A stretch of 64,000 nucleotides of DNA from Moorella sp. Hama-1 (GTDB lineage Bacteria; Bacillota; DSM-521; Neomoorellales; Neomoorellaceae): assembly GCF_023734095.1 (NCBI RefSeq), contig NZ_AP024620.1:2042501-2106500 (forward strand). Reading direction: 5' to 3'. The position numbers were made by a program, and so were the translations under genes. The notes beneath the pieces were generated by a model. The model was given only the letters and a program-made list of their open reading frames with translations, was not told where the DNA came from and did not search any database. Each line of letters opens with the position of its first letter. The stretch's first letter is position 1. Below, piece by piece: positions 1 through 60,772 of the stretch.

Positions 1-806
1 ATGCCGGCCTCCATGGCTGCCGCAACTGCTGCCGGGGTTACCCCATCGATCACCACCTCCAGGACGGCATTGACTTCGGGGGGCAGAAGGGTGCTGGGGA
101 CCAGGCCCCTGAGGGTAGGACAGAAAGATACATTGGTGGAAGCATTGAGAAATTTATACCGGGAGCCTACCTGGCTGCCGCTGCGTACTATCCCCCCCGG
201 AAAAGGCAGGATGACGCCCCGCAAAGACCTAATGGCGGCGGCAGCAGCTTCGGCTGCTTCCAGGGCCGCCCCGGCCGTCCCGGCCAGGATAAGAAAATTC
301 CCCCCGCCGACAGCCTTAACGACTGTAAAATCCTCCTGAACAAGGAATTCGCCTTCCATAACCGGAATTCGCCAGAAGCGTTTGCCGTCGATAACTTTAC
401 TGGCCTGGTAACCGTCGCCGAAAAAGCGCAGTTTTTTGCCGATACTTAACTTGGCCGGAGATCCTTCCCCGTCTCCCGCCGCTGCAATCCGGCCGTCATA
501 GCACGCTGTTGTGGGGGTTGTCATCACCGCCTGGCCGATACGGTTAATAAGTTGCTTTTCCATAGCGTCTTTGGAAGTAGTGAAAAAGAGGCAATCAATC
601 CCCGGCCGGCCATCGGGGGTCGCAGGTGAGGGACCCTCAATGCCGGCTTCGACCCCGCACCCGATGACGGAGGTGGCAAAACCGGTAGCCGCCACAGCAG
701 CCTCACGGGCCCATTTCTCATTGATAGCCGTAATGGTGACCCGTGTACCGTACATGGTGAAGGCCTCGGCAAAGGTATCCTCGATTTCTACCCCATTTAA
801 GCGCAT
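1..806 (-). CDS. ftr: Formylmethanofuran:tetrahydromethanopterin formyltransferase, C-terminus cut by window edge
   Basis: Transfers the formyl group between formylmethanofuran and H4MPT in the cytoplasm; called Ftr in methanogens and FhcD in methylotrophs. I translated it by hand because it runs off the left edge: about 268 residues are visible of the roughly 300 usual. It begins MRLNGVEIEDTFAEAF and keeps the family blocks ATGFATSVIGCGVEAGIEGP, TPDGRPGID, RIGQAVMTTPT, FFGDGYQ, VMEGEFLVQEDF, FPGGIVRSGSQVGS and FLNASTNVSFCPTL. The ATG overlaps the end of fwdA by 10 bp, so the two are translationally coupled. A subunit C gene probably follows outside the window. Family assignment is firm; the physiological direction is not known. 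Confidence 0.93.
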   Translation of the reverse strand, partial: MRLNGVEIEDTFAEAFTMYGTRVTITAINEKWAREAAVAATGFATSVIGCGVEAGIEGPSPATPDGRPGIDCLFFTTSKDAMEKQLINRIGQAVMTTPTTACYDGRIAAAGDGEGSPAKLSIGKKLRFFGDGYQASKVIDGKRFWRIPVMEGEFLVQEDFTVVKAVGGGNFLILAGTAGAALEAAEAAAAAIRSLRGVILPFPGGIVRSGSQVGSRYKFLNASTNVSFCPTLRGLVPSTLLPPEVNAVLEVVIDGVTPAAVAAAMEAG

Positions 807-2446
807 GGGACCACCTCCGGGTTGGCTACATACTCGTCTTCCACGCCATAATTGGCCAGGGAAACAGTGTAGAATTCAGCGAAATCCCGCTGTAGTTCCA
901 TCGGCAAGGTCGAGGGTGCGGGAGGGGCGACCATGAGGGTCCTGCCGGAGGCACCGGCCACGATCTGGCCTTCCCGGATGATAAGTTTACCGCCCTTAAG
1001 GACATATGCTGCCCTGGCGAACATGGCTTGCTTATCCCTCTGGGGACGATAAATGGCAATATCGGCGTCGGCGCCAGGACCAAGATGCCCCTTCCGGGTC
1101 AAGCCCAGGGCCCGGGCAGGGCCGGCGCGGGTAATGATGGCGATTTCCTCCAGGGTATACTCGCGGTTAAGTTCCGCCAGGCAGGTGTAGCGCTGCACCC
1201 GGGGATTGAGTTTCGCCAGCCATTCCCGGCGGTAATCAGCATCCATAAGCAGATGGATGATCTGGGGATAGGCTGTGAACGGCCCGGCATTGGGGTGGTC
1301 GGTGGTAAGGAAAATTTGCCACGGGTTAGTCACCAGCAAAAGCAGTTCCAGGCCGATGGCCCACTGCACGGCGTTGACCAGGACCTCAGGGCGGTAGTTC
1401 AGGGGAACAACTCCCGATCCGCTTTCCATCTCGATATCGCAGTTGCTCCATTTATTACCTGTTAACCGGTGCAGGTTAAACTGCATGGGGGCGTCGGCCG
1501 TCATGGTAGTAGCCGGTCCGAAGACAATCTGACCTGCATCGCAGGTAAATTCCGGGTGCTGGTTGAGATATTCCGCTACCTGGGGCGCTGCCGACCGGAT
1601 ACCGCCCTTTTTGGTAGCAGCGTAGGAGTGAAATTGCAAATGCGTGAAATGCACCCGGTGGCCGGACAAAAAACGCATCGTTTCCAGGGTGGTCCGGAAA
1701 TTACCCGCCTGGCCGAGATGGTTGGCATGCAGGTGCAGGGAGTGGGGCAGCCGGAGATCTTCCACTGCTTCTACCAGCACCTCTAAAATCCGACGCGGCG
1801 TAACGCCGAAGGGGGGTACGGGCGTATCCAGATCGACTTCGCCCCGGCCCCATTTCCAGTTTTCTACACCCCCGGGGTTGACTGCTTTAACGGCGTAGCC
1901 CTTGCTCGCGCGCAGCAGCCAGGCCACCAGGTCCCGCGTCTGTTCCCGCCGGCGCGGGGCATCGACGTCGCTAATAGTTTTCATCACCAGGTAGTTGTTG
2001 CCCATCAGCGTATAAAACCCCGTATCGAGGAGGGGCATATCCCGGAGTTCCTCATGGACATGGCGCGCCTCGAGGGGAGGTGCGGCAGCTTCGAAGGCGG
2101 TAGTGTAGCCCATCGTGGCATACAGGTAACCGGTATAAAAAGAGGTTGGCGTGGTACAGCCGCTGCCGGAACGGGTCCGGGAAGTCCTGGCCCTAAAATG
2201 CTCATAGTGATCTTCCGGGCATAACAGGCGGCCGCTGTTAACCTTCGGGCCGGCGATGTGGCTGTGGATCTCAACGCCGCCAGGCATGACGACCAGGCCC
2301 GAGGCATCAATTATGTCTATGGGGCTGCCCGCAGACTCGCGGTCGGGACCGGCCACAATCTTATCGCCTTCGATATAGATGTCCTTAACGGCCCCTTTTA
2401 TACCGTTAGCAGGATCATAGACCTGGCCGTTAGCGATTTTGATCAC
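797..2446 (-). CDS. fwdA: Formylmethanofuran dehydrogenase subunit A (amidohydrolase-type)
   Basis: FwdA/FhcA is the binuclear-metal amidohydrolase subunit that interconverts formate and formylmethanofuran. The 549-residue length is normal. The metal-site motifs are visible: GGVEIHSHIAGPKVNSGRL near residue 58, PEDH shortly after, the region with the lysine expected to be carboxylated (GYAVKAVNPGG, about residue 185), LHANHLGQ, THLQFHSY and the aspartate in TTDHPNAGPF (about residue 383). It overlaps fwdB by 17 bp and ftr by 10 bp, so it lies in a tight operon. Methylotrophic bacteria use FhcA as a hydrolase. Here the redox-type subunits B and D next door argue for the archaeal dehydrogenase form. 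Confidence 0.95.
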   Translation of the reverse strand: MIKIANGQVYDPANGIKGAVKDIYIEGDKIVAGPDRESAGSPIDIIDASGLVVMPGGVEIHSHIAGPKVNSGRLLCPEDHYEHFRARTSRTRSGSGCTTPTSFYTGYLYATMGYTTAFEAAAPPLEARHVHEELRDMPLLDTGFYTLMGNNYLVMKTISDVDAPRRREQTRDLVAWLLRASKGYAVKAVNPGGVENWKWGRGEVDLDTPVPPFGVTPRRILEVLVEAVEDLRLPHSLHLHANHLGQAGNFRTTLETMRFLSGHRVHFTHLQFHSYAATKKGGIRSAAPQVAEYLNQHPEFTCDAGQIVFGPATTMTADAPMQFNLHRLTGNKWSNCDIEMESGSGVVPLNYRPEVLVNAVQWAIGLELLLLVTNPWQIFLTTDHPNAGPFTAYPQIIHLLMDADYRREWLAKLNPRVQRYTCLAELNREYTLEEIAIITRAGPARALGLTRKGHLGPGADADIAIYRPQRDKQAMFARAAYVLKGGKLIIREGQIVAGASGRTLMVAPPAPSTLPMELQRDFAEFYTVSLANYGVEDEYVANPEVVPCA

Positions 2447-3725
2447 GGGCTACTCTCTCCTTTAGCCATCGTAATACCTCTTCATCCGATGGAGAGGGAT
2501 AGTCAACCAGTTTCTTCAGGTGCAGGGGAACATTGTCCATGCGGTAGAAAGTGCCTGTCACCCCCACCCCCGCCGGGGATACCGGGATAACGACCCGGGC
2601 CCAGGGGGTTGTCAGGTTGCGATGGGGCTCCAGGACAACTGTCGGTATCCGCCGCAAATATTCCACCGCGGCCCCGGGCAGGTGGGCGCCGGGGTCGGTA
2701 GCGACGATCAGCGCAGCATCCACTTCCCGGCGTCCCAGCATATCCACAACGCTAAACTCACCGGGATTGTAACGCGGGTAACCCCGGCTCAAGTTAACGG
2801 CGAAGGGATAACCGGTCTGCCAGGTCAGCACGTGATTGCTGCCGGTAACATTACCGTGACCGCGCATGGGGATGGCATAAAAGCGGGTATATTCGTTCAG
2901 CTCCTGGACCAGGGTCAGGAGCAGTTCTGTATTTAATTCCCTGCCGCGGCTCATCGTTAAACCGATACCGAAAAAGACAACCCCATATTGACAGGTTTTC
3001 ATTAATTGGGCCAGTTCTCCCCAGGCGGCCAGGGGAATGCCGGCGATAGAGCCGGTGCCCTTCCCCGGCCCGTTTAACGGCAGCCCTTTAACCAGGGCGC
3101 GCAGGATCGTCAAGGCTTCGAAGTCACGACCCGCCTGAACCTGGAGAAAAGTATCGGCGGCCCGGGCCGTAGGCGTGGGCCTGATGTCGATGACTACAAT
3201 TTTTTTACCCTGGCGCCCGGTGGAGGTAAAGAGTCCCCTGGCCAGGGCGGAATAACGGCTAAAATGGCGCATGTGGGCCTCCAGGGGATTACAACCCCAA
3301 AAAATTAAGAGATCGGCCCGGTTTTTCACTTCTCCCAGCGTACATGAGGCCAGCCCTACCTGCTGGCGGGCGATAACGCCCGGCCCGTGTCAATACGAAG
3401 CCGGGTTATCAATGGTAGCACCGATGAGATCGGCAAGGGCTACGGCCTCGCGTTGCGCTTCGGTAGTGGTGCTGCTCAAGCCATAGATCAAAGGAAACCT
3501 GGCCTGGCTTAATATCCGGGCGGCCGCCTCCAGGGCTTCCTCTAGGGAAGCCGGTTGCCCGTTAACTGTTACAGCGCCCAAATTTTTCTGGGCATGCAGA
3601 AGTTTGTTCCTGCCGATGGCGCAGGCCCGTTTGACCTTCTTAATTTGATTATTTTCCACTTCAACCTCAAGGTCGTCGCACAGGCAACTGCAAAAGGTAC
3701 AGACTACATTTTGAATGCTGCTCAT
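2430..3725 (-). CDS. fwdB: Formylmethanofuran dehydrogenase subunit B, probable selenoprotein (UGA at 3390-3392)
   Basis: This is the molybdopterin catalytic subunit that reduces CO2 to formate or oxidises formate. Two open segments (3390-3725 and 2430-3389) lie in one frame, separated by a single TGA at codon 112. Reading through gives 431 residues, the family length. The TGA sits in PASY-U-HGPGV, where archaeal FwdB has catalytic Cys or Sec in front of HGP. The N-terminus carries a 4Fe-4S motif (CTFCSCLCDD, with a further Cys in RACAIGRNK). The downstream half (FWGCNPLEAHMRHFSRY, PMRGHGNVTGSNHV) is intact. Bacterial Fhc B subunits of methylotrophs usually lack a working active site, so this one looks archaeal-type. 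A pseudogene is unlikely because nothing else is damaged. Confidence 0.9.
3349..3392 (-). promoter_or_regulatory. Candidate bacterial SECIS element of fwdB
   Basis: Directly after the in-frame UGA (3392-3390) the mRNA reads CACGGGCC, resembling the start of the E. coli fdhF context. Twenty-two bases on, a perfect 6-bp stem GCCAGC/GCTGGC (3367-3362 with 3354-3349) closes a 7-base loop AGGUAGG. That loop resembles the AGGU loop of the fdhF SECIS. A competing hairpin GGGCG/CGCCC lies at 3381-3368. The loop begins 28 bases after UGA, longer than in fdhF but plausible for a SelB target. The fold is by eye only. Confidence 0.65.
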
Positions 3726-4102
3726 TTTGCTTTCTCCCCCCTTCCGTAGGTTGCGAGATTCTGATCTTGCAAAGGCTCAAGCTTTACTTCCAGCCCCTTA
3801 AAGTCAGGTACCCCGGTCCCTTGCGTATCAGTACCGATAACCTGGTTGGCCACAGGCCCCAGGGGAAGAAAAAACAGGCCCCCCGGCACTTCGGCCGTCC
3901 GGCAGGTTACGATGGCTTCGCCGTAAGTGCTGGTTAAACGCACCCGGTCACCAGGTTCCACGCCCAGGGCAGTCAAATCGTCCGGGTTTATTTGCAACGT
4001 GGCAACCTCCTCCTGGTACTCCGGACTGCTTTTATCGCTGACCATGGCTATTCCTTGCCTGGCAGTCCGGACAGTAATCAATAAGCCACAGATGTTCGAC
4101 AA
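3722..4102 (-). CDS. fwdD: Formylmethanofuran dehydrogenase subunit D (molybdopterin dinucleotide-binding)
   Basis: A 126-residue protein matching the C-terminal molybdopterin-dinucleotide-binding beta-barrel domain that is a separate subunit in archaeal formylmethanofuran dehydrogenases. Characteristic segments are LQINPDDLTALGVEPGDRVRLTSTYGEAIV and GGLFFLPLGPVANQVIG. The last of these, with N near the end, contacts the cofactor in the family. Its stop overlaps the fwdB start by 4 bp (ATGA type) and its start overlaps the ATP-grasp gene by 25 bp. Methylotroph fhc clusters normally lack this subunit, so its presence supports a true redox enzyme with a Mo or W cofactor. Confidence 0.88.
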   Translation of the reverse strand: MSNICGLLITVRTARQGIAMVSDKSSPEYQEEVATLQINPDDLTALGVEPGDRVRLTSTYGEAIVTCRTAEVPGGLFFLPLGPVANQVIGTDTQGTGVPDFKGLEVKLEPLQDQNLATYGRGEKAK

Positions 4103-5373
4103 TCGCCGTCACCTTCTCCTAAAATTCTCCGTGCCCAGGCAGCCCGGGAACCCAGTTGTTGCCGGCAAGAGTTTTCGCTGGCGGCCCGAACTATGACCGT
4201 GCAGACCGGCTGGCCGGCAGAGACCAGCGTTCCCGGCAGCGGGATATCGCGCATTCCCTGCCGGTAAAGAAGCCCGGGGCCTATGAGCGGTGCTACGGTA
4301 AAGGTCTTTTGCGCGTAGACGATGGCCTTTCCCCAAAAGTCGTACTGTACAGTGGGTCGGCAGGCGGGCCTTCCCCGGTCATTGCCCACGCCGCCTCCGG
4401 AAAAAATGAGCTCTGGATTTATTGCGTTCCCAAAACCGCAGGCAGCAATATGCCAGGCAAAAAGGGGCAGATTGAGCTTTTTTTCAATGAGTTCGACTGA
4501 GGCCGACCAGCGTGGATTAACTTCCAGAACCCAGATCCCCCTCGAATTAGCTATAAAATCAATTGTATTCAACCCTTTAAGGCCAAAGGTTGCTGTCAGG
4601 TGCCCGGCTATGCGGTTAAGAAGCCTTTCCAAAACCTGCATTCCGGGCCGAAAGGGAAGGACAAGGGGAACAATATTGCCGGCATAGACAAACGGGCGCG
4701 CCCCCGGTTCACCCGCTCCCACGAGCTGCCGGCTGGCACCGAGCAAGACGGCCCGCCGCCCATCGGCCAGAAAAGTAGCCGAACAAGGTATACCGGGAAT
4801 AAACTGTTGAATTATAAAACCCTCTTTGTCCTGCAAGGCCGTTAATTGGGACCTCGCCTTCACCGGCTCCCGGGATAACAGGCGAATACCGTGGCCGCCG
4901 CCACTGGCCAGGGGTTTCAGCAACCATTGCCTGCCTGTAGCCGGCATTAACCGGCGATCCGCCCTTGTAAAGGGAGGCATAGCAACATTTATCTGCGCCA
5001 GAGCCTTGCGGAGCAGCCAGGGATCTCGAACGCCTTTTAAGGCCGAGGGAGGGTTGCCTGCCAGCAGACCTCGTCTTTCCCAAAATCCCAGCCCTTCCGG
5101 GTGGTTGTCAGGCCCTGACGTATAAACCATTCCCTCGAAGGGATTATCACAGGTATCAATCGCCGGACCTCCGGGGACCAGAGTTATGCTCCTGGCTAGG
5201 GCGAGGAGGTTCTTTACCGAGGGCATAAGGCCAAGATCACTCTTCAAACCAAGCACCGGCCCCTGCTGGCGACTATCCCAGTCGCCATAATAGTCAAGGG
5301 CCAGTACATTAAAGCCGGCCTGAACGGCAGACTCCACCACGGCTCGAGAGCTTATGCCGACTATAAGGAACAA
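4078..5373 (-). CDS. ATP-grasp domain protein of the H4MPT C1 cluster
   Basis: A 431-residue protein with an N-terminal Rossmann-like pre-ATP-grasp segment (MFLIVGISSRAVVESAVQAG). The ATP-grasp core follows (about residues 130-310) with WLLKPLASGGGHGIRLL, a substrate-loop region FIIQQFIPG, and the Mg/ATP-binding IWVLEVNPRWSAS. ATP-grasp proteins of unknown exact substrate are conserved in bacterial methanopterin gene clusters and are thought to act in cofactor assembly. Its place between mtdB (6-bp gap) and fwdD (overlap) fits that. Whether it adds an amino acid to a methanofuran or H4MPT precursor is inference. Confidence 0.8.
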   Translation of the reverse strand: MFLIVGISSRAVVESAVQAGFNVLALDYYGDWDSRQQGPVLGLKSDLGLMPSVKNLLALARSITLVPGGPAIDTCDNPFEGMVYTSGPDNHPEGLGFWERRGLLAGNPPSALKGVRDPWLLRKALAQINVAMPPFTRADRRLMPATGRQWLLKPLASGGGHGIRLLSREPVKARSQLTALQDKEGFIIQQFIPGIPCSATFLADGRRAVLLGASRQLVGAGEPGARPFVYAGNIVPLVLPFRPGMQVLERLLNRIAGHLTATFGLKGLNTIDFIANSRGIWVLEVNPRWSASVELIEKKLNLPLFAWHIAACGFGNAINPELIFSGGGVGNDRGRPACRPTVQYDFWGKAIVYAQKTFTVAPLIGPGLLYRQGMRDIPLPGTLVSAGQPVCTVIVRAASENSCRQQLGSRAAWARRILGEGDGDCRTSVAY

Positions 5374-5379
5374 CCGAGT

Positions 5380-6243
5380 TCAGGCTCCCAACTCTTTGGT
5401 TAAAGTATAAATAGCTTCCAGGTCCAGAACCTGATCGTTACGTTGATATAAGGCCTGCAGGGCAGCACGATGGACCTTCATTTTTAAGTTGCCAATAGCA
5501 ATAGCCCCATAAACGATTTTCCCCTGCCTCTCCTTCCCGTCATCACCCACCTTAATGCCTTCAATGCCCAGGGGTTCCACAGCATTGATATCAGCCATGA
5601 TTTCCAGGCTCTCCTGTTGCGTCCAGGTGGCCTGGTCCAGTAACTGCACCCCCGGGCTGCCGCAGCAGACGGCGATATTGATCCCCTTTGCCAGGGCGGC
5701 ATTTGCATCCTGCTTCCCGGTAACCTGCAGGGGCTCTACCTCCACCCCTCCTTGTTGCTTAAGGTGCTGGCAAACTTCTTGAGCCCGTTCTAATTGGCGT
5801 GAAGATAGTAAGACCTGGCAGCCTTCTCGAAACAATAGTTTGGCAATCCTGGTGCCTACAGGGCCGGTGCCGGCAAGGACCAGGGCTTTCTTGCCGGTAA
5901 GGTTGCGCCCCCGCGCAATTTTTTGTACGGCTGCCGATGCCGTGGTATTGCAGCCGTTGGGATCAAACATCACCGCAACCCTCACCGGGCCGAAAAAGGT
6001 TTTTTGTACTTGGTCGAGGAGTTCCTCCGCCTCAACCACCCGGGTGCCGCCGATAAATATCGCTGAATGGCGTAAATCCTCCCCGCCGCGAGTAAACATA
6101 ACACCATAGACCAGGGGTGCTACTTCCGCCGGCGAAATCCCCCCGTAAGCCATGACGTGATCAACCCCGGCGTCATAGGCTACAACCTGATCAAAGACAC
6201 TGGCTCTAGTATCCCTCTCCAAATGGAGTAAAAGCTTTTTCAT
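5380..6243 (-). CDS. mtdB: NAD(P)-dependent methylene-H4MPT dehydrogenase (MtdA/MtdB family)
   Basis: Oxidises methylene-H4MPT to methenyl-H4MPT with NAD(P). The ATG at 6243 is chosen because the protein then starts MKKLLLHLERDTRASVFDQV, as in the family, with GGAGGAGG six bases upstream; an upstream in-frame extension has no family similarity. The product is 287 residues. Diagnostic blocks are YDAGVDHVMAYGG, VMFTRGGEDLRHSAIFIGG, FFGPVRVAVMFDPNGCNTTA, the nucleotide-binding VLAGTGPVGTRIAKLL, and EIMADINAVEPLGIEG near the end. It is the bacterial enzyme type rather than the F420-dependent archaeal Mtd. Choice between MtdA and MtdB cannot be made by eye. Confidence 0.9.
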   Translation of the reverse strand: MKKLLLHLERDTRASVFDQVVAYDAGVDHVMAYGGISPAEVAPLVYGVMFTRGGEDLRHSAIFIGGTRVVEAEELLDQVQKTFFGPVRVAVMFDPNGCNTTASAAVQKIARGRNLTGKKALVLAGTGPVGTRIAKLLFREGCQVLLSSRQLERAQEVCQHLKQQGGVEVEPLQVTGKQDANAALAKGINIAVCCGSPGVQLLDQATWTQQESLEIMADINAVEPLGIEGIKVGDDGKERQGKIVYGAIAIGNLKMKVHRAALQALYQRNDQVLDLEAIYTLTKELGA

Positions 6244-6614
6244 TGTCAACCTCCTCCGAAAATAGCATTCTACCAAAAATGGTTGCAATTTATAGTAACT
6301 GCTGCGGGGCTGGCGGGCACAGGCTTCAGGCTCCGGTGGTTCTCGGCGAGCAAACTTAGCGCTCAGCCTTCCTCGGCGGCGGGGGTGGCAGAACTCTGTT
6401 CTTTTGATCAAATATGACGGGGAGTGCTACTACTCAATCCTGAAGCCACGTTACGATCCCCATCCCGTTCACCGCCGCCTTGGTGCGGCTTCGCTGAGTT
6501 TGCTCTGCGCCTCGAACCAAGTCGCCTTCAACCTGTACCCGCCAACCCCTGTCTCCACCTGCATTTTCATCTTTCGTAGCGGGGGCTTCAACCCCCATGA
6601 GGGGTTCCTCCATT
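6244..6614. repeat. Intergenic stretch with repeat family A and a piece of repeat B
   Basis: The 371 bases between mtdB and the DUF447 gene contain no convincing gene. From about 6494 to 6548 the sequence TCGCTGAGTTTGCTC ... CTCGAACCAAGTCGCC ... CCTGTACCC repeats with changes at 20128-20169 and 56367-56427 (family A). The end at 6575-6605, with CCCCCATGAGGGG and TTCCTCC, resembles the end of repeat family B at 17870-17889 and 32910-32930. It interrupts an otherwise tight operon. Confidence 0.6.
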
Positions 6615-7253
6615 TCAAGGCAAGGAGATGCCTTGCTCCTGCAAAAATTCACGGATAAGGTTGTAAGCCTGCATCTCCCGCACCCCGCCGGTCTTGTTGA
6701 CTAGCTCCCGCCAGTAAGGCCAGTTTCTTGCCAGCCATTCGGTTTCAATATATTGCCATCGGGTCGCGGCGATGGCGGCCTCCAGTACGGCCATCCGGGC
6801 GCGACAGAAACCGTAAACACCGGTTTCTGCTTCGCAATGCAGGATTTCCGCCTCAACCACAGCCGGTTCGATAGCAGCGTCAAAAGTAGTTACCCTGAAC
6901 TCCCAGAAAGCGCCGGCACCTGCCAGCCGCGGCGGCCGGACCTGCCGGGACTGTGAATACGGAGGGCAGGAAGAAAAAAGGGCCGTCTCCACAAAGAGCA
7001 AGACGTCATCCGTAAAGCAGATTACCCCCTCCCTCGTTGCATACAAATTCTTATAGGTTTGCGAACTGCTATAGGGTCGCAGGCGAAACCCCGGCCGGGT
7101 ATCCCCCGCAGGACCCCTTTGCTCCCGGGGAGCGCTCCGGGGAAAATCATTGCCTTCCTTGCCGGGAGTTTGCTGGAGCAGGTGGACCCCCATGGGAGCA
7201 AAATTGATTGCGCCTGCAGGGCTGATCGTAGAAACTATCGCCTCGAGGATCAT
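6615..7253 (-). CDS. DUF447 family protein of the methanopterin cluster
   Basis: A 212-residue protein of the DUF447 family, found in methanogens and in bacteria with H4MPT-linked C1 metabolism; its reaction is not established, although a flavin-reductase-like fold has been suggested for such proteins. It starts MILEAIVSTISPAGAINFAPMGVH, typical of the family, and continues with CFTDDVLLFVETAL, FWEFRV and a C-terminal helical part VYGFCRARMAVLEAAIAATR. The ATG at 7253 overlaps the previous stop in an ATGA arrangement, which decides the start over an upstream in-frame ATG. Operon membership suggests a role in cofactor synthesis or protection. Confidence 0.82.
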   Translation of the reverse strand: MILEAIVSTISPAGAINFAPMGVHLLQQTPGKEGNDFPRSAPREQRGPAGDTRPGFRLRPYSSSQTYKNLYATREGVICFTDDVLLFVETALFSSCPPYSQSRQVRPPRLAGAGAFWEFRVTTFDAAIEPAVVEAEILHCEAETGVYGFCRARMAVLEAAIAATRWQYIETEWLARNWPYWRELVNKTGGVREMQAYNLIREFLQEQGISLP

Positions 7254-8632
7254 CTTTGGTCCCGCTCCCCGGCCGCGTCGGCGTTCATATAGCCCCACCG
7301 CAAGGGAAAATCCTGCCGGTACCTCTTCCCCAGCCGGGCGGCGAGCTCAGCTTTATCCAGTTCTCGCCCCAGGTAAAAAGCGTGGGCGGGATCAGTCACC
7401 GGTAGCCGGGCAATAAGTTCTTCGGCGCTGGTACCGCGGAGGAAAAGACGGTTATTAAACACATAAATATACCGGCCGGCCACAAAAATCCGGAAGTTTT
7501 TATCTTTAATTTGAGCCTGCATCTCGCGCAGCTCGGTTTCGGTGAAAAGATTGCTCCGGGGGTCTTTAATGGTTAAAAGCCCGTCGTCCAGATGTTTAGG
7601 CAGGCGCCCCTGCGCCAGCGCCCGCTGCATAAGCCTGCGAGCCAGGTCGACCTCTTTAACGGCACCAGCAGCCCGGTGACTGACTTCGGTGGTAAGGACA
7701 TAATCGATATTCAATTCCGTGGCCAAACCCACCAGGAGGGCATTGATACCCGTACTATCGGCATCCACCAGCTCAGTAACATTGCCCAGGCCCATAAGCA
7801 CCGCCCGGTCCGGGAACCTTTTTCTCACTTCCACGTAGCGGCTGATCCCCTCCGCCAGTCCCAGGGTCAACGGCGGCAGGATGGGGTCAATGACATAGGG
7901 CCGGCCCCAGCGCTCCATTTGTTCGATGTTGCGGTACAGGGAAGGCAACCCCTCACCTTCATCGGGGATTATTACGGCAGGACACTCCAGTTCTTTAGCC
8001 AGCTCCAGGTTCTCGGAGTTGAGGCTTAAGACCAGATCCACTCCCGCTTTATTGGCATCGCGAATGTCCTCGGCCCGGTGACTGTCTACGCTGACGGTGA
8101 ACCCTTCTGCTTTTAAGGCCCGCACCGCTTCCCCCAGGTGGGGGAAAGATTGGTCTACATCACAGCCAATATCAATGATATCGGCCCCGCCCTGCCGGTA
8201 GTAACGCGCCCGTTCCACTATTTGCGGCAGGGTCAAGCCGGAGGCTGCCACTATTTCCGCCAGGATTTTGAGCCGCGGCCCGGGACCGGCTTCTTCCGCC
8301 GGAGGAGCGTGGATAGCACCGGGCGTTTTGTACCCGATTAAGCAGGCGGGCAGGTCTTCTAGGTCCGCGGGACCCCGCAGCACCCGGCAGCCTGTGGCTG
8401 CGGTAATGCATTCCAGGGGGCCCTGACACAGGCCGGGGATGATTATTATTTCCGCGCCGGTCTCCTCCCGCACTCCCTGGAGATGCCGGCTGATATACTC
8501 TGTAGTCATCAATGCCGCTACCGATCGCGGCAACACTTTTATGACCCAGCCTCCCGGTAGCTCGAGACCCGCAACGACCTTTTCCAGAGCCCTGCAGGCT
8601 AATTTTCCCGTCACCAGCAAGTACCTGGCCAT
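7250..8632 (-). CDS. Dihydropteroate-synthase-like protein (TIGR00284/DUF6513 type)
   Basis: A 460-residue protein with an N-terminal domain of about 120 residues (MARYLLVTGKLACRALEKVV ... IIIPGLCQGP) followed by a pterin-binding TIM-barrel: LKILAEIVAASGLTLPQI, ADIIDIGCDVDQSFPHL, VSVDSHRAEDIRDANKAGVDLVLSLNSEN, and RPYVIDPILPP. Proteins of this form occur in methanogens and in H4MPT-using methylotrophs and are believed to join the pterin to RFA-phosphate in methanopterin synthesis. It overlaps the DUF447 gene by 4 bp and is 26 bp downstream of the flavoprotein gene. The exact step is inferred from family context. Confidence 0.87.
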   Translation of the reverse strand: MARYLLVTGKLACRALEKVVAGLELPGGWVIKVLPRSVAALMTTEYISRHLQGVREETGAEIIIIPGLCQGPLECITAATGCRVLRGPADLEDLPACLIGYKTPGAIHAPPAEEAGPGPRLKILAEIVAASGLTLPQIVERARYYRQGGADIIDIGCDVDQSFPHLGEAVRALKAEGFTVSVDSHRAEDIRDANKAGVDLVLSLNSENLELAKELECPAVIIPDEGEGLPSLYRNIEQMERWGRPYVIDPILPPLTLGLAEGISRYVEVRKRFPDRAVLMGLGNVTELVDADSTGINALLVGLATELNIDYVLTTEVSHRAAGAVKEVDLARRLMQRALAQGRLPKHLDDGLLTIKDPRSNLFTETELREMQAQIKDKNFRIFVAGRYIYVFNNRLFLRGTSAEELIARLPVTDPAHAFYLGRELDKAELAARLGKRYRQDFPLRWGYMNADAAGERDQR

Positions 8633-8658
8633 AGGATTAACCCTCCCTCGCTACCAGG

Positions 8659-9195
8659 TTAAAGTACCAGGTTTTTTAAGTCCAGGGGGTTCGGTGCTAT
8701 GGTAACTCCCGGCCAGGTTGCCAGCCTGGAAATATTGCCGACGTCGATGGGCCGGGGGAGCAACTGGACCCGGATACCGCCGGGGGCCACGGATACTTCT
8801 TCTCCCGGCATATCGGTTGGCAGAATTATAACCGGCACCCGGCACTTGCCGGCATGGGCGAACAAGTTGGTCACCAGGCTATCGGCTATACCCCAGGCCA
8901 TTTTGGCAACCGAGTTGGAGGTGGCCGGGGCGATAACCACCAAGCGGTAATACCCCCGGTACAGCCCGGTTACCGGCCGGGAAGCCCCGGTATGATCCCA
9001 GTACAACCGGTGGCCGGTGGCTGTTAAGGATTCCAGCAGCCCATAACTCCTTAGCACCTCGCGGCCGGCGCGGGAAATAAAAACGTCGACCGCCTTGAGT
9101 TCTTTTAAAATATCCAGGCACTGGTGGAGAAAATGGCCCGCTCCAGTAATACCCCAGGCAATTCGCCCCTGGTATTCAAATTTTTGTTGCCCCAT
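8659..9195 (-). CDS. Flavoprotein, probable dihydromethanopterin reductase (DmrB/AfpA-like)
   Basis: A 178-residue flavoprotein-fold protein starting MGQQKFEYQGRIAWGITGAG, followed by ISRAGREVLRSYGL, VVIAPATSNSVAKMAWGIADSLVTN, VPVIILPTDMPG and a GGIRVQLLPRPID block. These are features of the archaeoflavoprotein/DmrB family, whose members reduce dihydromethanopterin to H4MPT with FMN. The ATG at 9195 is preferred; it overlaps the beta-RFAP synthase gene by 20 bp. An upstream in-frame start would overlap about 80 bp. The Shine-Dalgarno sequence is weak, consistent with coupled translation. Confidence 0.83.
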   Translation of the reverse strand: MGQQKFEYQGRIAWGITGAGHFLHQCLDILKELKAVDVFISRAGREVLRSYGLLESLTATGHRLYWDHTGASRPVTGLYRGYYRLVVIAPATSNSVAKMAWGIADSLVTNLFAHAGKCRVPVIILPTDMPGEEVSVAPGGIRVQLLPRPIDVGNISRLATWPGVTIAPNPLDLKNLVL

Positions 9196-10207
9196 AGTAC
9201 TCGAACCTGCTGTTACTCTCTTTCTCCGCGACTTTGCACCAGCCCCAACTGGCACCTTGATTCCGCCCCCGGGCTACCCACACGTCCCCTCTACCCGAAA
9301 GATAGGACCGGGCCGCCTTTTCCAGAATGGCCAGTTTTTCTTCAGAGGCAAAGCCGTAAACTGTCGGCCCCCAGGAGCTTTGCCCGACTCCGGCCGCCCC
9401 TGCCGACAGGAGGAGTTCTGCGAGTTCGGCTCCTTCCCGGGTGGCAAAAACCCCTCCCTGGACGGGTGCAAAATATGAACCGATAATTTGCTGCATCTCA
9501 GTGACCCCTTCCCCAAAAAGAGCGAGATTCTTTTCGACCAGGGCCGGCAGGACCTTCATAAGCACCAGGCGGCAAAGCCTGCCGGAGAGCTCCTCAGCCA
9601 TCGGCGGCAGTGATTGAAATGCCAGTTTTTCTTTGCTGCCGCTAATTCTCTCCTGCTTATGGGGTGTTGCCAGGACGATACCCCATTCCCGAGGAAAAGG
9701 TAGACAGGCGACAACCGGGGGCACCTGGAAAGGGGTTTCACCGGCGCCGTTCCGGCGCGCTGCCGGCATACCGCCGTCCACCAGGAAACCGCCCCGGGTG
9801 AAGACGGCCACGCCAATGCCGGAACGGCTGCCTTCCCGGTCCGTAAGCCGGGCCAGTTCCATTATCGCCGGTTGCAAACCGTAAACGCGAGTGAGGGCCA
9901 GGCCAAGGGCCAGGGAAAGCTGGGTTCCTGACCCCAGCCCGCTGTGGGCCGGGAAGGAGCTGGCAATTTGAATCTTTGCGCCGGGTAAACCATAATGCCG
10001 GCAATACTGCCGGGCAATGGCCAGGGCCCTATCCACTTCTTCCTCCGGACCGGCGATATTTAGGTCTTTATCCGGCTGGGCGCTGATTTCCAGGCAGGGC
10101 CGATCTACAGCCAGGCCTATACCCCCGTACAGGCGGCCCATCGAGCCGTTGAGGTCCAGTTGACCCAGGTGCAGGCGGGCGCTGGTCTTAACCCGAAAAA
10201 TCGGCAT
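9176..10207 (-). CDS. mptG: Beta-ribofuranosylaminobenzene 5'-phosphate synthase
   Basis: Catalyses the first committed step of methanopterin synthesis: condensation of PRPP with 4-hydroxybenzoate or p-aminobenzoate with loss of CO2 and PPi. The 343-residue GHMP-kinase-fold protein begins FRVKTSARLHLGQLDLNGSMGRLYGGIGLAVD. It has the glycine-rich GHMP motif in SSFPAHSGLGSGTQLSLALG (about residue 92) and a late GAAGVGQSSWGPTVYGF block, all typical of beta-RFAP synthase. Its presence indicates that the cell makes its own H4MPT-type cofactor rather than borrowing folate. Confidence 0.92.
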   Translation of the reverse strand: MPIFRVKTSARLHLGQLDLNGSMGRLYGGIGLAVDRPCLEISAQPDKDLNIAGPEEEVDRALAIARQYCRHYGLPGAKIQIASSFPAHSGLGSGTQLSLALGLALTRVYGLQPAIMELARLTDREGSRSGIGVAVFTRGGFLVDGGMPAARRNGAGETPFQVPPVVACLPFPREWGIVLATPHKQERISGSKEKLAFQSLPPMAEELSGRLCRLVLMKVLPALVEKNLALFGEGVTEMQQIIGSYFAPVQGGVFATREGAELAELLLSAGAAGVGQSSWGPTVYGFASEEKLAILEKAARSYLSGRGDVWVARGRNQGASWGWCKVAEKESNSRFEYYGATKI

Positions 10208-10304: not shown

Positions 10305-11051
10305 TTACCCTTCCTTGACAACAGCGTCGTAAATCCAGACGGCAATAATTGCCCCCACGATGGGTGCCAGCAGGTATATCCAGAAGACAGGCCAGTTGTT
10401 GGGCCCGCCAGCCAGGCTGTCAATCAGATAAGGCCCGAAGGTACGGGCGGGGTTAATCCCTTGTCCGGAAACATTACCTAAAGTTGTAATTACGCCTCCC
10501 ACGATAAGTCCGATAATCAATCCCGCCCAACCCTGGGGGGCACGTTTATCGACTGCGATCCCCATGATGGTCAACATCAGGATAAATGTTCCTACTGCTT
10601 CGGCAATAAAAACCTGGCTCAAACTGATACCGGGGAAAGGTCCCGGGGCACCGAGGCCGCCGACTGTAGCCCCTTTCATACCCAGCATAGCCAGTAAGGT
10701 CAGGGCACCGAAGGCCGCACCGCCGAACTGGGCGATTAAATAGGGTATAACTTCAGCCGCCGGGAAGCGCTTGCTGGCCCAGAGGGCGATAGTTACCGCC
10801 GGGTTAAAATGCGCGCCAGATACGGGACCAAAAATATAAATTCCCGCCGCAATTACAATTGCAAAGGCCAGGCCTATGGAAAGCCAGTCTCCCAGCCCCC
10901 CCAGGGCGCCGATACCTATATTGAACTGGGAAGCCGCTTTTTCCCCCTGGGCCAGCATGAGGGTTACAGCGGCAGCCCCGGCGCCGACTACTACCAGCAT
11001 CCAGGTGCCAATGAATTCCGCGCAAAATTTTTTGATCATAGAAGCCTGCAT
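10305..11051 (-). CDS. Aquaporin / MIP-family channel
   Basis: A 248-residue membrane channel with six predicted transmembrane segments and the two half-helix motifs HFNPAVT (about residue 83) and GINPARTFGP (about residue 210). The second includes the selectivity-filter arginine. It conducts water or a small neutral solute. It lies between the DUF2193 gene and mptG on the same strand, with gaps of about 100 bp, so it is probably in the same operon. A C1 compound such as methanol as the physiological cargo would fit the surroundings but is only inference; the sequence alone does not separate water from glycerol channels. Confidence 0.88.
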   Translation of the reverse strand: MQASMIKKFCAEFIGTWMLVVVGAGAAAVTLMLAQGEKAASQFNIGIGALGGLGDWLSIGLAFAIVIAAGIYIFGPVSGAHFNPAVTIALWASKRFPAAEVIPYLIAQFGGAAFGALTLLAMLGMKGATVGGLGAPGPFPGISLSQVFIAEAVGTFILMLTIMGIAVDKRAPQGWAGLIIGLIVGGVITTLGNVSGQGINPARTFGPYLIDSLAGGPNNWPVFWIYLLAPIVGAIIAVWIYDAVVKEG

Positions 11052-11154
11052 CCCAAACCCTCCCCTGAAGAATTAGACAAGGAGAATTCGTGGAGAAAGG
11101 ATGGGCGGGAGCCCCTCCGGGCAACCTGCCCACCCTATTTCGTAATTGTCGAGA

Positions 11155-12636
11155 TCAAACCGATTGCTTCCAATTGCAATAATCATGTCGCTTAATCAAA
11201 GTAGTAACGGCACAATCCTTGCAAACCCTTGCCGGGGAACCAGGTGTTTGGGGATCCAGGGCGATAATATTAGTCATCAAGGTGGCGGTAACCGGCTCGC
11301 TGGTCAGGAGACAGGGGAAATCCGCTAAACGCATCAATGAAGAGAAACGTACCGTAATGGCACAGGCAGGATAAGTATAACGCTGCGGGTTGGTAATAAC
11401 ATCATTGGCGTCAATGGGATCAAGTTGTACCGGAATACCTCGTACTTTACCGCCAGCACCTATCGGGCTTACCTCTAGTATCTTGCTGCCGCGGTGGAGC
11501 ATATCCAGGAAATCACAATTGTGGAGTTCGGCCGCCGCACCGCGGTTGGGATATTTCTGAACATAGTTGAAGAAGCGCTTAGTTAAAAGATCGATAACCA
11601 TGGGAACAGTGAAACCATCTTTTTCTAAAATATAGGCTACGGCAGCGGCCGAAGAGCCCGTGGCCACACTCAGGACATCATACTGGCTCTTAAAGCCCTG
11701 TTCCAAGCCAACGTTCAAAGTTTTCTCCATTACTTCCGTTACGGCCTCGATAATGGCCATGGTCATATCATCTTTAGCCATATTGAACATTGATTGGGCT
11801 ATGTGGTGAGCCACGTCACCGACACAGTAGGCAGGTACGGTGACTATGTTCCCATAATGGACCCCGGCATCTACGGCTGCTTTAACAGCGGGGCGCATCC
11901 TTTCTTTATACATTTCCATGTACTTCTTAACGTCAAAAGAGGAATGCCCTGCTTCAATCATCAACCTGGTTTGGGCTTCAATGGGCCGATCGTAAACCAG
12001 TTGCAGCATGGCAATTTCTTCTTTGACTGCTTCAGACGCCGTCTTACCAGCCTCAATGGCCGCGGCAAAGGCGGCACCAATACCGTATGAGGTATTCATA
12101 CCCCAAGATTTGGCGGAAAGGATGGCCTTCTTGTAGTCCTTATCTATATCCAGTCCCCGCAGAATATCATTAACCACATTACTGGTCGAGCCCGGGCAAT
12201 AGGCAAAGTCTACCACACATGTGGGTCCATAGAAGCCGCCATAGCGGCGGATAGCCTCCCTCCCCACCAGGGCCTCATTGGCAGCAATGGCAGCAATAAA
12301 TTTTTCTACCGCCTGGCGGAAAGCCGGATCTAGTTCGTAGAGAATCTCCAAAATAGCCGGAGTCTGATAATGTTCTACAAAGGGGTCGTCTTCAGGCCGT
12401 ACAGTCTCAGTCAACTGGTTCAAAATATCATAGTGAGCGTTAACCGAATCAACATGCAAACGAATAACTTCAGGGCTCTGTCCCTCTCCTACCTTCATGC
12501 CATTGACGGCGTCAACGTAAGGTTTGGCATCGGTGATTTTGAAAACACCACCTCTTTTGGCCTTGATGACCTCAACGTCTGCCTTCTGAGCAGCCATGGC
12601 TTCGGCCACCATTTTGGCGTATACCGCCTGCGACAT
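11155..12636 (-). CDS. DUF2193 family protein
   Basis: A 493-residue soluble protein of the DUF2193 family, known mainly from methanogenic archaea; no reaction is established. Visible features are a conserved cysteine-bearing block GFYGPTCVVDFAYCPGSTSN (about residue 132), SAKSWGMNTSYGIGAAFAAA, YCVGDVAHHIAQSMFNMAKDD, and a C-terminal CKDCAVTTLIKRHDYC that could bind metal. It is the first gene downstream of a perfect sigma-54 promoter and is followed by the aquaporin and methanopterin genes. A role in handling a C1 substrate or the H4MPT/methanofuran pathway is inferred from context only. Confidence 0.78.
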   Translation of the reverse strand: MSQAVYAKMVAEAMAAQKADVEVIKAKRGGVFKITDAKPYVDAVNGMKVGEGQSPEVIRLHVDSVNAHYDILNQLTETVRPEDDPFVEHYQTPAILEILYELDPAFRQAVEKFIAAIAANEALVGREAIRRYGGFYGPTCVVDFAYCPGSTSNVVNDILRGLDIDKDYKKAILSAKSWGMNTSYGIGAAFAAAIEAGKTASEAVKEEIAMLQLVYDRPIEAQTRLMIEAGHSSFDVKKYMEMYKERMRPAVKAAVDAGVHYGNIVTVPAYCVGDVAHHIAQSMFNMAKDDMTMAIIEAVTEVMEKTLNVGLEQGFKSQYDVLSVATGSSAAAVAYILEKDGFTVPMVIDLLTKRFFNYVQKYPNRGAAAELHNCDFLDMLHRGSKILEVSPIGAGGKVRGIPVQLDPIDANDVITNPQRYTYPACAITVRFSSLMRLADFPCLLTSEPVTATLMTNIIALDPQTPGSPARVCKDCAVTTLIKRHDYCNWKQSV

Positions 12637-12696
12637 ACCATCAACCTCCCGAAGAAAGTTTTTCGTGGTGCGACCCGGGCACCATTATTTTATAAA

Positions 12697-12712
12697 TGCA
12701 AGTACCGTGCCA
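12697..12712 (-). promoter_or_regulatory. Sigma-54 (-24/-12) promoter of the DUF2193-led operon
   Basis: On the minus strand the sequence is TGGCACGGTACTTGCA, a full match to the sigma-54 consensus TGGCAC-N5-TTGC. It lies 60 bases upstream of the DUF2193 start and just beyond the end of the sigma-54 activator gene. Further upstream, GATCAG (12755-12760) and CTGATC (12772-12777) form an inverted repeat that could be the activator's binding site. Confidence 0.88.
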
Positions 12713-12754
12713 AGCATAAAATTAATTGAAAAACGCGCTTCACGTATAAATTTG

Positions 12755-12777
12755 GATCAGCGGGAGTCCTCCTGATC
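12755..12777. promoter_or_regulatory. Inverted repeat, possible upstream activator site
   Basis: GATCAG and CTGATC are separated by 11 bases, about 45-60 bases upstream of the -24 element. The position suits an enhancer-binding protein site, but the repeat is short and could be chance. Confidence 0.35.
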
Positions 12778-12886
12778 GCTCCATAAAGGAACACCCAAGA
12801 TGCAGTCGGAGTTAACCGAAGATATATTCTTCCTCTCTTTATTCTAAATTAAACCATAATAATACATGTTCCAAAACGGATCGGAG

Positions 12887-14869
12887 CTAGCGGCGAGGAA
12901 TGGGAATGGAGTATTTCTTCAATTTACGATAAAGGGTATTACGGCCGATACCTAAGATAGCCGCGCACTGGGAAATATTCCCTCCAGTCTCTTTTAGAGT
13001 TTCCAGTATCAGCTTTTCCTCGTATTTTTCCAGGGATACCAAATTTGTCTCCCTGATCTTGCCGTTGCTTGCAAGTAACTGTAAGGGTTCTGGTAAATGC
13101 TCAAGGGTAATGGTCTTACCCCGGGCCAGGTTGACTGCCCTTTCTATTGCATTAGAGAGTTCCCGTACGTTTCCCGGCCACCAGTAGCTCTCCAAAGCCC
13201 GGGCTGTCGCAGGATCAAGATTGCACGGGGCTAACTTAAGCATGGAGGAAAATTTTTGGATAAAATAATTCGCCAGCAGGATTACATCCCCTTCCCGGTC
13301 CCGTAAGGGGGGAATGGCCAGGCAAATAACGTTGAGGCGATAGTAAAGATCATTACGGAAATTGCCTTTCTCTACCTCTTTTTTTAAATTCCTGTTGGTA
13401 GCGGCAATGACCCTGATATTAACCGGTATAGGCGTAAGGCCGCCGACACGAACAACTTGTTTTTCCTGAAGAACACGGAGCAGGGACACTTGCGTTTCCA
13501 GGGGCATATCGCTAACCTCATCGAGGAAAATGGTGCCTTCATTTGCCAGCTCGAATTTGCCGGGACGACCGCCTCGTTTTGCCCCGGTAAAGGCCCCCTC
13601 TTCATAGCCAAAGAGTTCGCTCTCCAAAAGATCCCGCGGAATAGCCCCGCAGTTGATAGCTACAAAGGGCCCCTTCGCAACCGGACTGGCATTGTGAATA
13701 GCCTGGGCAAACATCTCTTTCCCGGTGCCGCTTTCACCTTCCAGGAGTACGGAAGACATGCTGAGGGCCACTGCTTTAGCGGTTTGAATGGTCCGGCGTA
13801 AAGCAGGGCTATGGCCGAGGATGTCGTCAAAGGTAAACTGGGCCCTGGCTCCTACCATTCTGGTAACCAAACGCTGGACGCTTTTCATGGCGCGTAAGGT
13901 AATAACGCCGCCATAAATTTTTCGTTCCTGATCCATAATCGGTCTACCAGTCAGTAAAAACTGGAGACGTCCATGGTTTGTATCCAAAAAAACTTCCTGG
14001 TCATTTATGGCCCGCTGGCCTGTGAGAAGATTATCAATGATGCCTGGCAACCCGAGAATTTTATTTATAGGTTGTCCCACACAATCTTCAGCCGCAATAC
14101 CCAGCATTTTAACGGCAACATGATTCATCTTGGTTATTTGCCCGTATTTATCAAACGATATGAGGCCTTCGGACATGGAATCAATAATTGCAGTAATATT
14201 ATTGTAGGATCTGGTAATTTCAGCGCCGGCCGCTTCCAACCGCAGTTGGTTTTCGATAGCTTGTACGGCAGCTACTACCATGCCCAGGGTATGAGCATGG
14301 GCGCGACGATAATCACCGGAAACATCGAGGATGCCAAGCATCTCTCCATTTTCGCCATGGATCGGGGCAGCAGAGCAGGTCAGCCAGTGATTGGCGCGGC
14401 AATAATGTTCGGTGGCATATACCTGCAGGTGTTTCTGTTCGATTTTTACTAAACCCATGGCATTGGTTCCTTTGGTTTCTTCGTCCCAAAATTCTCCTAT
14501 TTGAAAATGATAATCCCGGTTTAATATCTCCTGATCCCCCATAAGTTCAAGAATACAGGCTTCTTTATCAAGAAGGACCACGACAAAACCGGAACCCTTA
14601 ACCAGCCGGTAGAGATTTTCCAGAAAAGGCGCGGCGACTTCAATCAATCGCTGATAATGTTTGCGCCGGGCTTTTATCTCTGGTTCGGGCAACCGCATGG
14701 CAATCGGTTTTTCCGGGTTCAATTTTTTTTCAAGGCAACGCTGCCAGGAACGGAAAATCATCGAATTAATATACCCAGCGATTGTTTCCGGGTTTTCGCC
14801 CTTGATCACCATTTTTTCCCAATAAAAATATGTTTCTTTTTCATGCGATTCCCTCATTAGAACATTCAC
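12887..14869 (-). CDS. Sigma-54-dependent activator, GAF-PAS-AAA+-Fis (AcoR-like)
   Basis: A 660-residue enhancer-binding protein. The N-terminal 210 residues are GAF-like and resemble AcoR-type sensors (IFRSWQRCLEKKLNPEKP, FVVVLLDKEACILELMGD, GEFWDEETKGTNAMGL). A PAS domain follows at about 225-330 (IIDSMSEGLISFDKYGQITKMN). The AAA+ domain has Walker A GESGTGKEMFAQ, the sigma-54 contact motif GAFTGA, and Walker B GTIFLDEVSDM. A Fis-type helix-turn-helix is at the end (ISQCAAILGIGRNTLYRKLKK). There is no receiver domain, so it senses a ligand directly. The adjacent perfect sigma-54 promoter makes the DUF2193/H4MPT operon its likely target. Confidence 0.92.
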   Translation of the reverse strand: MNVLMRESHEKETYFYWEKMVIKGENPETIAGYINSMIFRSWQRCLEKKLNPEKPIAMRLPEPEIKARRKHYQRLIEVAAPFLENLYRLVKGSGFVVVLLDKEACILELMGDQEILNRDYHFQIGEFWDEETKGTNAMGLVKIEQKHLQVYATEHYCRANHWLTCSAAPIHGENGEMLGILDVSGDYRRAHAHTLGMVVAAVQAIENQLRLEAAGAEITRSYNNITAIIDSMSEGLISFDKYGQITKMNHVAVKMLGIAAEDCVGQPINKILGLPGIIDNLLTGQRAINDQEVFLDTNHGRLQFLLTGRPIMDQERKIYGGVITLRAMKSVQRLVTRMVGARAQFTFDDILGHSPALRRTIQTAKAVALSMSSVLLEGESGTGKEMFAQAIHNASPVAKGPFVAINCGAIPRDLLESELFGYEEGAFTGAKRGGRPGKFELANEGTIFLDEVSDMPLETQVSLLRVLQEKQVVRVGGLTPIPVNIRVIAATNRNLKKEVEKGNFRNDLYYRLNVICLAIPPLRDREGDVILLANYFIQKFSSMLKLAPCNLDPATARALESYWWPGNVRELSNAIERAVNLARGKTITLEHLPEPLQLLASNGKIRETNLVSLEKYEEKLILETLKETGGNISQCAAILGIGRNTLYRKLKKYSIPIPRR

Positions 14870-16612: not shown

Positions 16613-16853
16613 AGCAATAAAAATAAACGAAAATCATTTTGAGGTTGATATGCGGGGGTGGATGTGCCCCTATCCCAAATACGCAGTTGAAACTATTCTG
16701 GAAAGACTGCCGGCGGGAGGTTTTTTAGACCTGCTGGTCGACTGCCCCTCCGCAACTAAAGACGTTCCTGACTTGGCGCAAAAGCTGGGTTATGATGTAC
16801 AGAAGGTTGAAATTCTAAGGGATGGAGAATGGAAAATATGTCTGTATAAATGA
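16599..16853 (+). CDS. TusA-like sulfurtransferase (SirA family)
   Basis: An 84-residue protein with the sulfur-relay motif MCPYPKYAVE (about residues 22-31), where the cysteine of CPxP carries the persulfide. It also has the family pattern LDLLVDCPSATKDVPDLAQKLGY. It starts inside the end of the yeeE-like gene (ATG 16599), so the two are coupled. The role is to accept sulfur delivered by the transporter and pass it to a cytoplasmic partner. The start fits the family length of about 75-85 residues. Confidence 0.9.
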   Translation: MKELKAIKINENHFEVDMRGWMCPYPKYAVETILERLPAGGFLDLLVDCPSATKDVPDLAQKLGYDVQKVEILRDGEWKICLYK

Positions 16854-36859: not shown

Positions 36860-36884
36860 CTTCTTCGCCTCCTATCTGCTGCCC

Positions 36885-47258: not shown

Positions 47259-47306
47259 ACCATCATCCATGCTTACGCCTGCCCCTTCCGCGAGGGCGGC
47301 ATAAAC

Positions 47307-47456: not shown

Positions 47457-47527
47457 ACCATATACAACTTTCTATTTTAAATTATAATTGTTCGCCTGTT
47501 TTCTGTAAAGGCCCTTTGTAAAATATG

Positions 47528-60755: not shown

Positions 60756-60772
60756 GATCTTACCCCCTTCCC

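Follow-up and report, generated by a model that had tools for sequence, protein, structure and literature searches.

We analysed a 64,000-nucleotide stretch of the Moorella sp. Hama-1 chromosome (hereafter the window; contig NZ_AP024620.1, positions 2,042,501 to 2,106,500), in which a first-pass annotation had placed an island of one-carbon (C1) metabolism that uses tetrahydromethanopterin (H4MPT) and methanofuran as carriers. All ten genes named there lie in one minus-strand run at 1-10207 and match their families, nine of them in both profile libraries or in NCBIfam and the DUF447 gene in Pfam only. The run does not end at 10207: genes for an aquaporin, a DUF2193 protein and a transcriptional activator, together with a promoter, lie upstream (10305-14869), and on the other side it continues past the window start with nine more genes. 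The complete C1 operon comprises 21 genes over about 21.4 kb of the minus strand, from the DUF2193 gene, whose upstream start is at 12636, to a HisA-like gene, and extends about 8.8 kb beyond the left end of the window. The chromosome is a single contig of 3,324,617 bases (completeness 99.6%, contamination 0.2%), ordinary core genes occupy both flanks and the block is also present in an independent Moorella assembly; misassembly of the island, which the first-pass annotation would have counted against its reading, is therefore unlikely. Features are listed in transcriptional order. Window position 1 is genome position 2042501, and position n of the left-flank stretch L002 is genome position 2026000+n.

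12887..14869, minus strand: sigma-54-dependent activator (Pfam Sigma54_activat 235 bits; GAF, PAS, AAA+ and HTH_8 (Fis HTH) domains)
12697..12712, minus strand: sigma-54 -24/-12 promoter element TGGCACGGTACTTGCA, 0 mismatches to TGGCACNNNNNTTGCW, 60 nt ahead of the DUF2193 start
11155..12636, minus strand: DUF2193 protein, first gene of the operon (PF09959 845 bits)
10305..11051, minus strand: AqpM-type (archaeal) aquaporin (phmmer: 309 bits to AqpM 3ne2, 301 bits to 2evu; best non-AqpM 82 bits)
9176..10207, minus strand: mptG, beta-ribofuranosylaminobenzene 5'-phosphate (beta-RFAP) synthase, H4MPT synthesis (TIGR00144 208.8 bits, cut-off 113.5)
8659..9255, minus strand: afpA/dmrB-like flavoprotein, candidate dihydromethanopterin reductase (TIGR02699 118 bits, TIGR02700 114 bits, both under cut-off)
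7250..8632, minus strand: dihydropteroate synthase (DHPS)-like pterin synthase (TIGR00284 216 bits, slightly under the cut-off of 257; DUF6513 and Pterin_bind)
6615..7298, minus strand: DUF447 protein (PF04289, PF20766)
5380..6243, minus strand: mtdB, NAD(P) methylene-H4MPT dehydrogenase (PF09176 106 bits; 250 bits to methylene-H4MPT dehydrogenases 6tge and 1lu9)
4078..5373, minus strand: ATP-grasp enzyme, an H4MPT-linked open reading frame (ORF) kept across fwd operons (PF02655 81 bits)
3722..4102, minus strand: fwdD, molybdopterin/tungstopterin-binding subunit (PF01568 49 bits; NF042908 89 bits, under the cut-off of 175)
2430..3725, minus strand: fwdB, catalytic subunit of formylmethanofuran dehydrogenase, one TGA read through (TIGR03129 531 bits)
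3349..3367, minus strand: candidate selenocysteine insertion sequence (SECIS) stem-loop after the TGA, GCCAGC-AGGTAGG-GCTGGC, kept in the Bacillota selenocysteine genes
797..2446, minus strand: fwdA, formylmethanofuran-hydrolysing subunit (TIGR03121 735 bits; 541 bits to 8rja_A)
1..806, minus strand: ftr, reaching genome position 2042386, full gene in L002 (Pfam FTR 186 bits and FTR_C 202 bits; PRK02114 419 bits)
L002 15508-16389, minus strand: fwdC (260 bits, above cut-off)
L002 14549-15526, minus strand: mch
L002 13559-14506, minus strand: MptN-like ATP-grasp ligase
L002 12576-13607, minus strand: CitG-like protein
L002 11810-12646, minus strand: mfnB
L002 10645-11802, minus strand: MfnD-like ATP-grasp protein
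L002 9356-10609, minus strand: mfnF
L002 8678-9331, minus strand: MfnE-like kinase
L002 7747-8571, minus strand: HisA/HisF-like protein, last gene of the operon

The gene set covers the conversions between CO2 and methylene-H4MPT, with Fwd (subunits A, B, C and D), Ftr, Mch and MtdB, and includes dedicated cofactor-synthesis genes (mptG, mptN-like, mfnB, mfnD-like, mfnE-like and mfnF), which bears out the proposal that the C1 module comes with the means to make its own cofactors. Of the three genes that were to be sought leftward, fwdC and mch, whose absence from the genome, together with lack of an H4MPT-type cofactor, had been named as fatal to that proposal, directly adjoin the window, whereas fae is missing: PF08714 had no match in this genome, nor in the 14 others searched among Bacillota that have FwdB or DUF2193 (15 genomes in all). 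The methylene-H4MPT reductase Mer likewise gave no TIGR03555 match, and the single MetF lies 15 kb from AcsB, within the folate and acetyl-CoA synthase (ACS) cluster. Because Fae and Mer were not found and the only MetF sits in that cluster, the H4MPT branch, as far as gene content tells, stops at the formaldehyde level, that is, at methylene-H4MPT. Fhs and AcsB are present, so that the expected folate Wood-Ljungdahl route of an acetogen exists in parallel. The idea of a C1 module working alongside the folate branch stands in this respect, but the module does not amount to a full methyl branch to acetyl-CoA beside the folate one, since no methylene-H4MPT reductase was found. What the earlier picture lacked, and what emerged here, is a TGA at the active site of FwdB, DUF2193, AqpM, probable sigma-54 control and apparent transfer of the whole block.

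The fwdB gene had been taken for one ordinary frame; it consists of two ORFs (3390-3725 and 2430-3329) parted by a single in-frame TGA at 3392-3390 on the minus strand. Read through this codon, the product is a full-length match to TIGR03129 over residues 6-425, at 531 bits against a cut-off of 328. The TGA is codon 112 and aligns with Cys118 of the archaeal tungsten FwdB 5t5i, with the conserved His next to it. In an alignment of 11 Bacillota FwdB sequences, every row has Cys in this column when selenocysteine (Sec) is read as Cys, and both H113 and the N-terminal [4Fe-4S] cysteines (C9, C12, C16 and C35) are invariant. TGA occupies the identical codon in seven loci from several families, namely the window and six relatives (M. 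sulfitireducens, Gracilibacter BRH_c7a, Peptococcaceae AS27, Candidatus Formimonas warabiya DCMF, Desulfosporosinus lacus and a metagenome-assembled genome of Actinomycetota), and two other members of the same clade carry Cys there. Across 88 FwdB sequences the active-site codon is TGA in 14 and Cys in 74; in the tree of these sequences the TGA genes fall in two separate parts, with at least four changes, and the Bacillota Sec clade is distinct (SH-aLRT 99) from the second part, which consists of planctomycetes and one acidobacterium.

One TGA does interrupt the fwdB frame, and on its face this could mean a true stop, a pseudogene and a decaying island. We consider such decay very improbable, and we rejected the pseudogene reading, because the TGA codon is shared by those seven loci and because the ratio of nonsynonymous to synonymous divergence (dN/dS) between the window and M. 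sulfitireducens is about equally low before and after it (0.12 and 0.10), as expected for one translated protein. The TGA also stands exactly at a known Sec/Cys position, and the remaining genes of the operon are all intact. The genome encodes a tRNA-Sec (72 bits, cut-off 47), the one component by which we judged Sec machinery to be present. Together, the shared TGA, its position, the tRNA-Sec and the equal purifying selection on both halves lead us to predict that fwdB encodes selenocysteine at residue 112.

The candidate SECIS hairpin that follows the TGA is conserved among the Bacillota Sec genes and, in the window, more stable than about 97% of synonymous recodings. We nevertheless regard it as weakly supported, because the 60-nt fold after the TGA is not unusual (z -0.07) and an Rfam search for SECIS gave no match. 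A hairpin unlike that of the Bacillota follows the TGA in the second bacterial Sec-FwdB group (Acidobacteriota and Rubripirellula-like planctomycetes; loci L119, L109, L114, L121, L127, L128 and L132).

In sequence, the FwdB of the window is of the dehydrogenase type and not of the methylotroph hydrolase type, since it scores 418 bits to archaeal FwdB 5t5i_B against 71 bits to Methylobacterium FhcB 6s6y_B and has both the active-site position and the N-terminal cluster cysteines. The first-pass annotation had likewise noted a D subunit and an active-site-bearing B subunit, and both are here.

The operon is very probably driven by sigma-54 and inducible, because a perfect -24/-12 element precedes DUF2193, an activator gene adjoins it and similar sites occur in relatives: in five of them good sigma-54 promoter matches lie 43-54 nt upstream of DUF2193, each also accompanied by an activator gene of the same family. 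The activator gene forms the upstream boundary of the conserved block. Homology with M. sulfitireducens spans the stretch between this gene (window 14836) and the HisA-like gene (L002 7763), and the flanks compared showed none, so the block sits at different chromosomal places in the two Moorella species. Of 11 genomes from the genus, only 2 have FwdB, and the order of genes in the block is found again in Peptococcaceae AS27, Formimonas DCMF and Desulfosporosinus lacus. This pattern fits horizontal spread as one block, and may also reflect loss. As a separate observation, mch has diverged little at synonymous sites between the window and M. sulfitireducens (pS 0.38, where the other genes in the comparison give 0.5-0.75), and the pattern of six-frame matches suggests that low divergence extends from mch into mptN (L002 13567-15500), a hint of recent recombination in this stretch.

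The first gene of the operon follows FwdB across genomes. Among 398 genomes sampled from the phylum, FwdB occurs in 12 and DUF2193 in 10, with both in seven where 0.3 would be expected (Fisher p = 3e-10, or 7e-9 without the window's own genome, values that overstate independence because the sampled genomes are related to each other); the three genomes with DUF2193 only are assemblies 79-87% complete. DUF2193 is present in 25 of 80 bacterial and archaeal fwdB loci (flanks up to 10 kb), from Chloroflexota, Halanaerobium, Synergistota, Actinomycetota, Thermodesulfobacteriota and Bacillota, and in 14 of these 25 mtdB starts less than 200 bp after it. None of the planctomycete or Methylomirabilota loci among the 80 has it, and a search of plasmids returned none. 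DUF2193 shows the strongest constraint of the proteins compared with M. sulfitireducens (dN/dS 0.03). Its AlphaFold model is helical (predicted local distance difference test score 83, predicted template modelling score 0.86); a Foldseek search of the model against solved structures gave no match below E 0.1, and a sequence search against the PDB gave none. We had at first read 11155-12636 as MtaB, a methanol methyltransferase, which the lack of a PDB match and the 845 bits to DUF2193 rule out. The family is also present in the methanogen M. voltae, in a paper that gives no function for it (PMC9431491). Since DUF2193 travels with H4MPT operons and often stands beside mtdB, we regard it as the best candidate for the entry enzyme of the branch.

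We propose, at a little better than even confidence, that this transferable, sigma-54-controlled operon encodes a second C1 pathway beside the folate Wood-Ljungdahl route, most likely for the inducible oxidation of formaldehyde-level C1 to CO2, with DUF2193 feeding it. The cell would make its own H4MPT- and methanofuran-type carriers, and DUF2193 would probably generate or load the formaldehyde-level C1 unit, its substrate or a product crossing the AqpM channel. MtdB would then interconvert methylene-H4MPT and methenyl-H4MPT plus NAD(P)H, Mch methenyl-H4MPT and formyl-H4MPT, and Ftr formyl-H4MPT and formyl-methanofuran; Fwd (the predicted Sec-FwdB with FwdA, FwdC and FwdD) would interconvert formyl-methanofuran and CO2, exchanging low-potential electrons with a presumed partner. 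Run oxidatively, the route would bypass the folate steps, including the ATP-dependent formyl-folate step, and gain NAD(P)H at MtdB and low-potential electrons at Fwd. We favour this direction because no methyl-level enzyme was found, DUF2193 comes first here and stands beside mtdB elsewhere, and the operon is sporadic and, as predicted, inducible. A further and more tentative proposal, short of probable in our estimate, is that DUF2193 is an undescribed enzyme, with a fold that has no solved relative, that loads formaldehyde-level C1 onto H4MPT in place of Fae in anaerobic bacteria, with methanol, formaldehyde or some other small, uncharged compound that enters through AqpM as the C1 source; this would be an unrecognized entry to anaerobic C1 oxidation. 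In acetogens with the block, C1 units would then travel on two carriers of separate chemistry, and the second route would finish at a bacterial seleno-formylmethanofuran dehydrogenase. Small neutral molecules can cross aquaporins. Taken with the growth on methanol of the block carrier Formimonas warabiya DCMF (PMC8163858), this makes methanol a plausible ultimate C1 source; the link is weak, since isolation on methanol is general among Moorella (PMC11328732) and M. voltae has DUF2193 as well.

Several observations weigh against the oxidative proposal. Every step is reversible in principle, and the direction is not fixed by genomic data. M. voltae, although a DUF2193 carrier, does not use methanol. 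The role of DUF2193 is drawn entirely from its position and co-occurrence; several cofactor proteins score under curated archaeal cut-offs; the SECIS hairpin, as noted, is weakly supported; and no FwdF or FwdG electron-transfer subunits were found among the operon genes, the rest of the genome not having been searched for them. The same pathway run backwards would be an ATP-sparing, CO2-fixing branch, taking CO2 and reduced ferredoxin through formyl-methanofuran to methylene-H4MPT and passing carbon to acetyl-CoA or biosynthesis. FwdA, FwdB, FwdC and FwdD are of archaeal CO2-reducing types, the host has AcsB and Fhs, and selenocysteine at the active site is well matched to CO2 chemistry at low potential; yet such a branch lacks Mer, finds its single MetF within the folate/ACS neighbourhood and FwdF/G missing from the operon, and would be sporadic and sigma-54-controlled, unlike a core autotrophic route. 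We judge it unlikely, though worth serious consideration. Less probable still is formaldehyde detoxification, in which free formaldehyde would combine with H4MPT, spontaneously or via DUF2193, and be burnt to CO2 with little energy gain. MtdB, Mch, Ftr and Fwd without Fae would serve this, as would an inducible-type promoter and a sporadic, transferable operon, but for detoxification alone it would be costly to keep 21 genes that include dedicated cofactor synthesis as well as an aquaporin and a predicted selenoenzyme, and FwdB is not of the Fhc hydrolase type of aerobic methylotrophs.

The operon shares FwdA, B, C and D, the Cys/Sec motif xHGP and the N-terminal [4Fe-4S] cysteines with archaeal Fwd/Fmd (5t5i, 8rja), but differs in its bacterial host, its gene order (fwdDBA-ftr-fwdC-mch), the absence of FwdF/FwdG polyferredoxins from the operon and an expected in-frame, bacterial-type SECIS, the archaeal type lying in an untranslated region. 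Ftr, Mch, MtdB, FwdA/C homologues and orf-type cofactor genes are common to it and the Methylobacterium Fhc pathway; the Moorella genome lacks fae, the operon has FwdD, and its FwdB has both the N-terminal cluster and the active-site position that Methylobacterium FhcB lacks. Sec FwdB has been published for archaea and one planctomycete (PMC4807772), and the TGA of Methanopyrus kandleri and planctomycete P2 falls at the same active-site codon; the Bacillota Sec genes differ in belonging to another FwdB clade than the planctomycete and acidobacterial ones and in lying within a full H4MPT operon.

The first-pass annotation knew of no described case in this group. H4MPT/methanofuran genes with fwdD and Afp were already noted in Firmicutes in 2016 (PMC5020050) and fwdDBA-ftr-fwdC in Wood-Ljungdahl Actinobacteria (PMC7325909); the sets the two describe from Firmicutes, Synergistetes, NC10 and Actinobacteria share fwdD, Afp and this gene order with ours and have a genuine Cys FwdB, and the accessible portions of the two papers make no mention of Sec FwdB, DUF2193, AqpM or sigma-54 control. 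A literature search outside subscription journals returned no publication that describes an H4MPT operon from Moorella, a Sec FwdB from Bacillota or DUF2193 as a partner. A 2019 H4MPT survey by Adam and colleagues may, reportedly, already describe part of the distribution. What appears to be new is the predicted Sec FwdB in Bacillota, along with the DUF2193/AqpM/sigma-54 unit and the transfer of that unit. Acetogens serve in textbooks as the standard example of C1 chemistry that uses folate only; a self-contained module of the methanogen type, which brings its own carriers and a predicted seleno-Fwd, now stands in the genus of the model acetogen, a concrete case of H4MPT chemistry spreading between lineages. 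The coexistence of both C1 systems becomes testable in an anaerobic thermophile whose related species are routinely grown on methanol and CO, and DUF2193, a very conserved family, is singled out as probably supplying the missing step of many H4MPT pathways in anaerobic bacteria.

Clustering of the unassigned ORFs from 41 loci gave mostly antisense ORFs; the rare genuine recurrent ones resemble, by eye, folate/pterin enzymes and a hydantoinase-like protein. To the left of the operon, past the HisA-like gene, lie a cysteine synthase gene and ruvA/ruvC, and the left flank also holds a c-di-AMP riboswitch (87 bits; L002 5520-5720, plus strand) ahead of a gene for a CAP-domain secreted protein. Just outside the activator gene, at window 15368-16853 on the plus strand, is a YedE/FdhT-like selenium or sulfur membrane protein gene (147 bits, under the cut-off of 350), followed by an ORF that looks TusA/SirA-like by eye. 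Farther into the window are a cobalamin riboswitch (107 bits; 47296-47465, minus strand) upstream of a gene that by eye is nicotinate-nucleotide-dimethylbenzimidazole phosphoribosyltransferase-like, and an [FeFe]-hydrogenase (35138-39920, minus strand) whose 1011-aa NuoF-like subunit carries a fused GltD-type NAD(P)-binding domain; the maturases HydG and HydE are encoded at 57980-60776.

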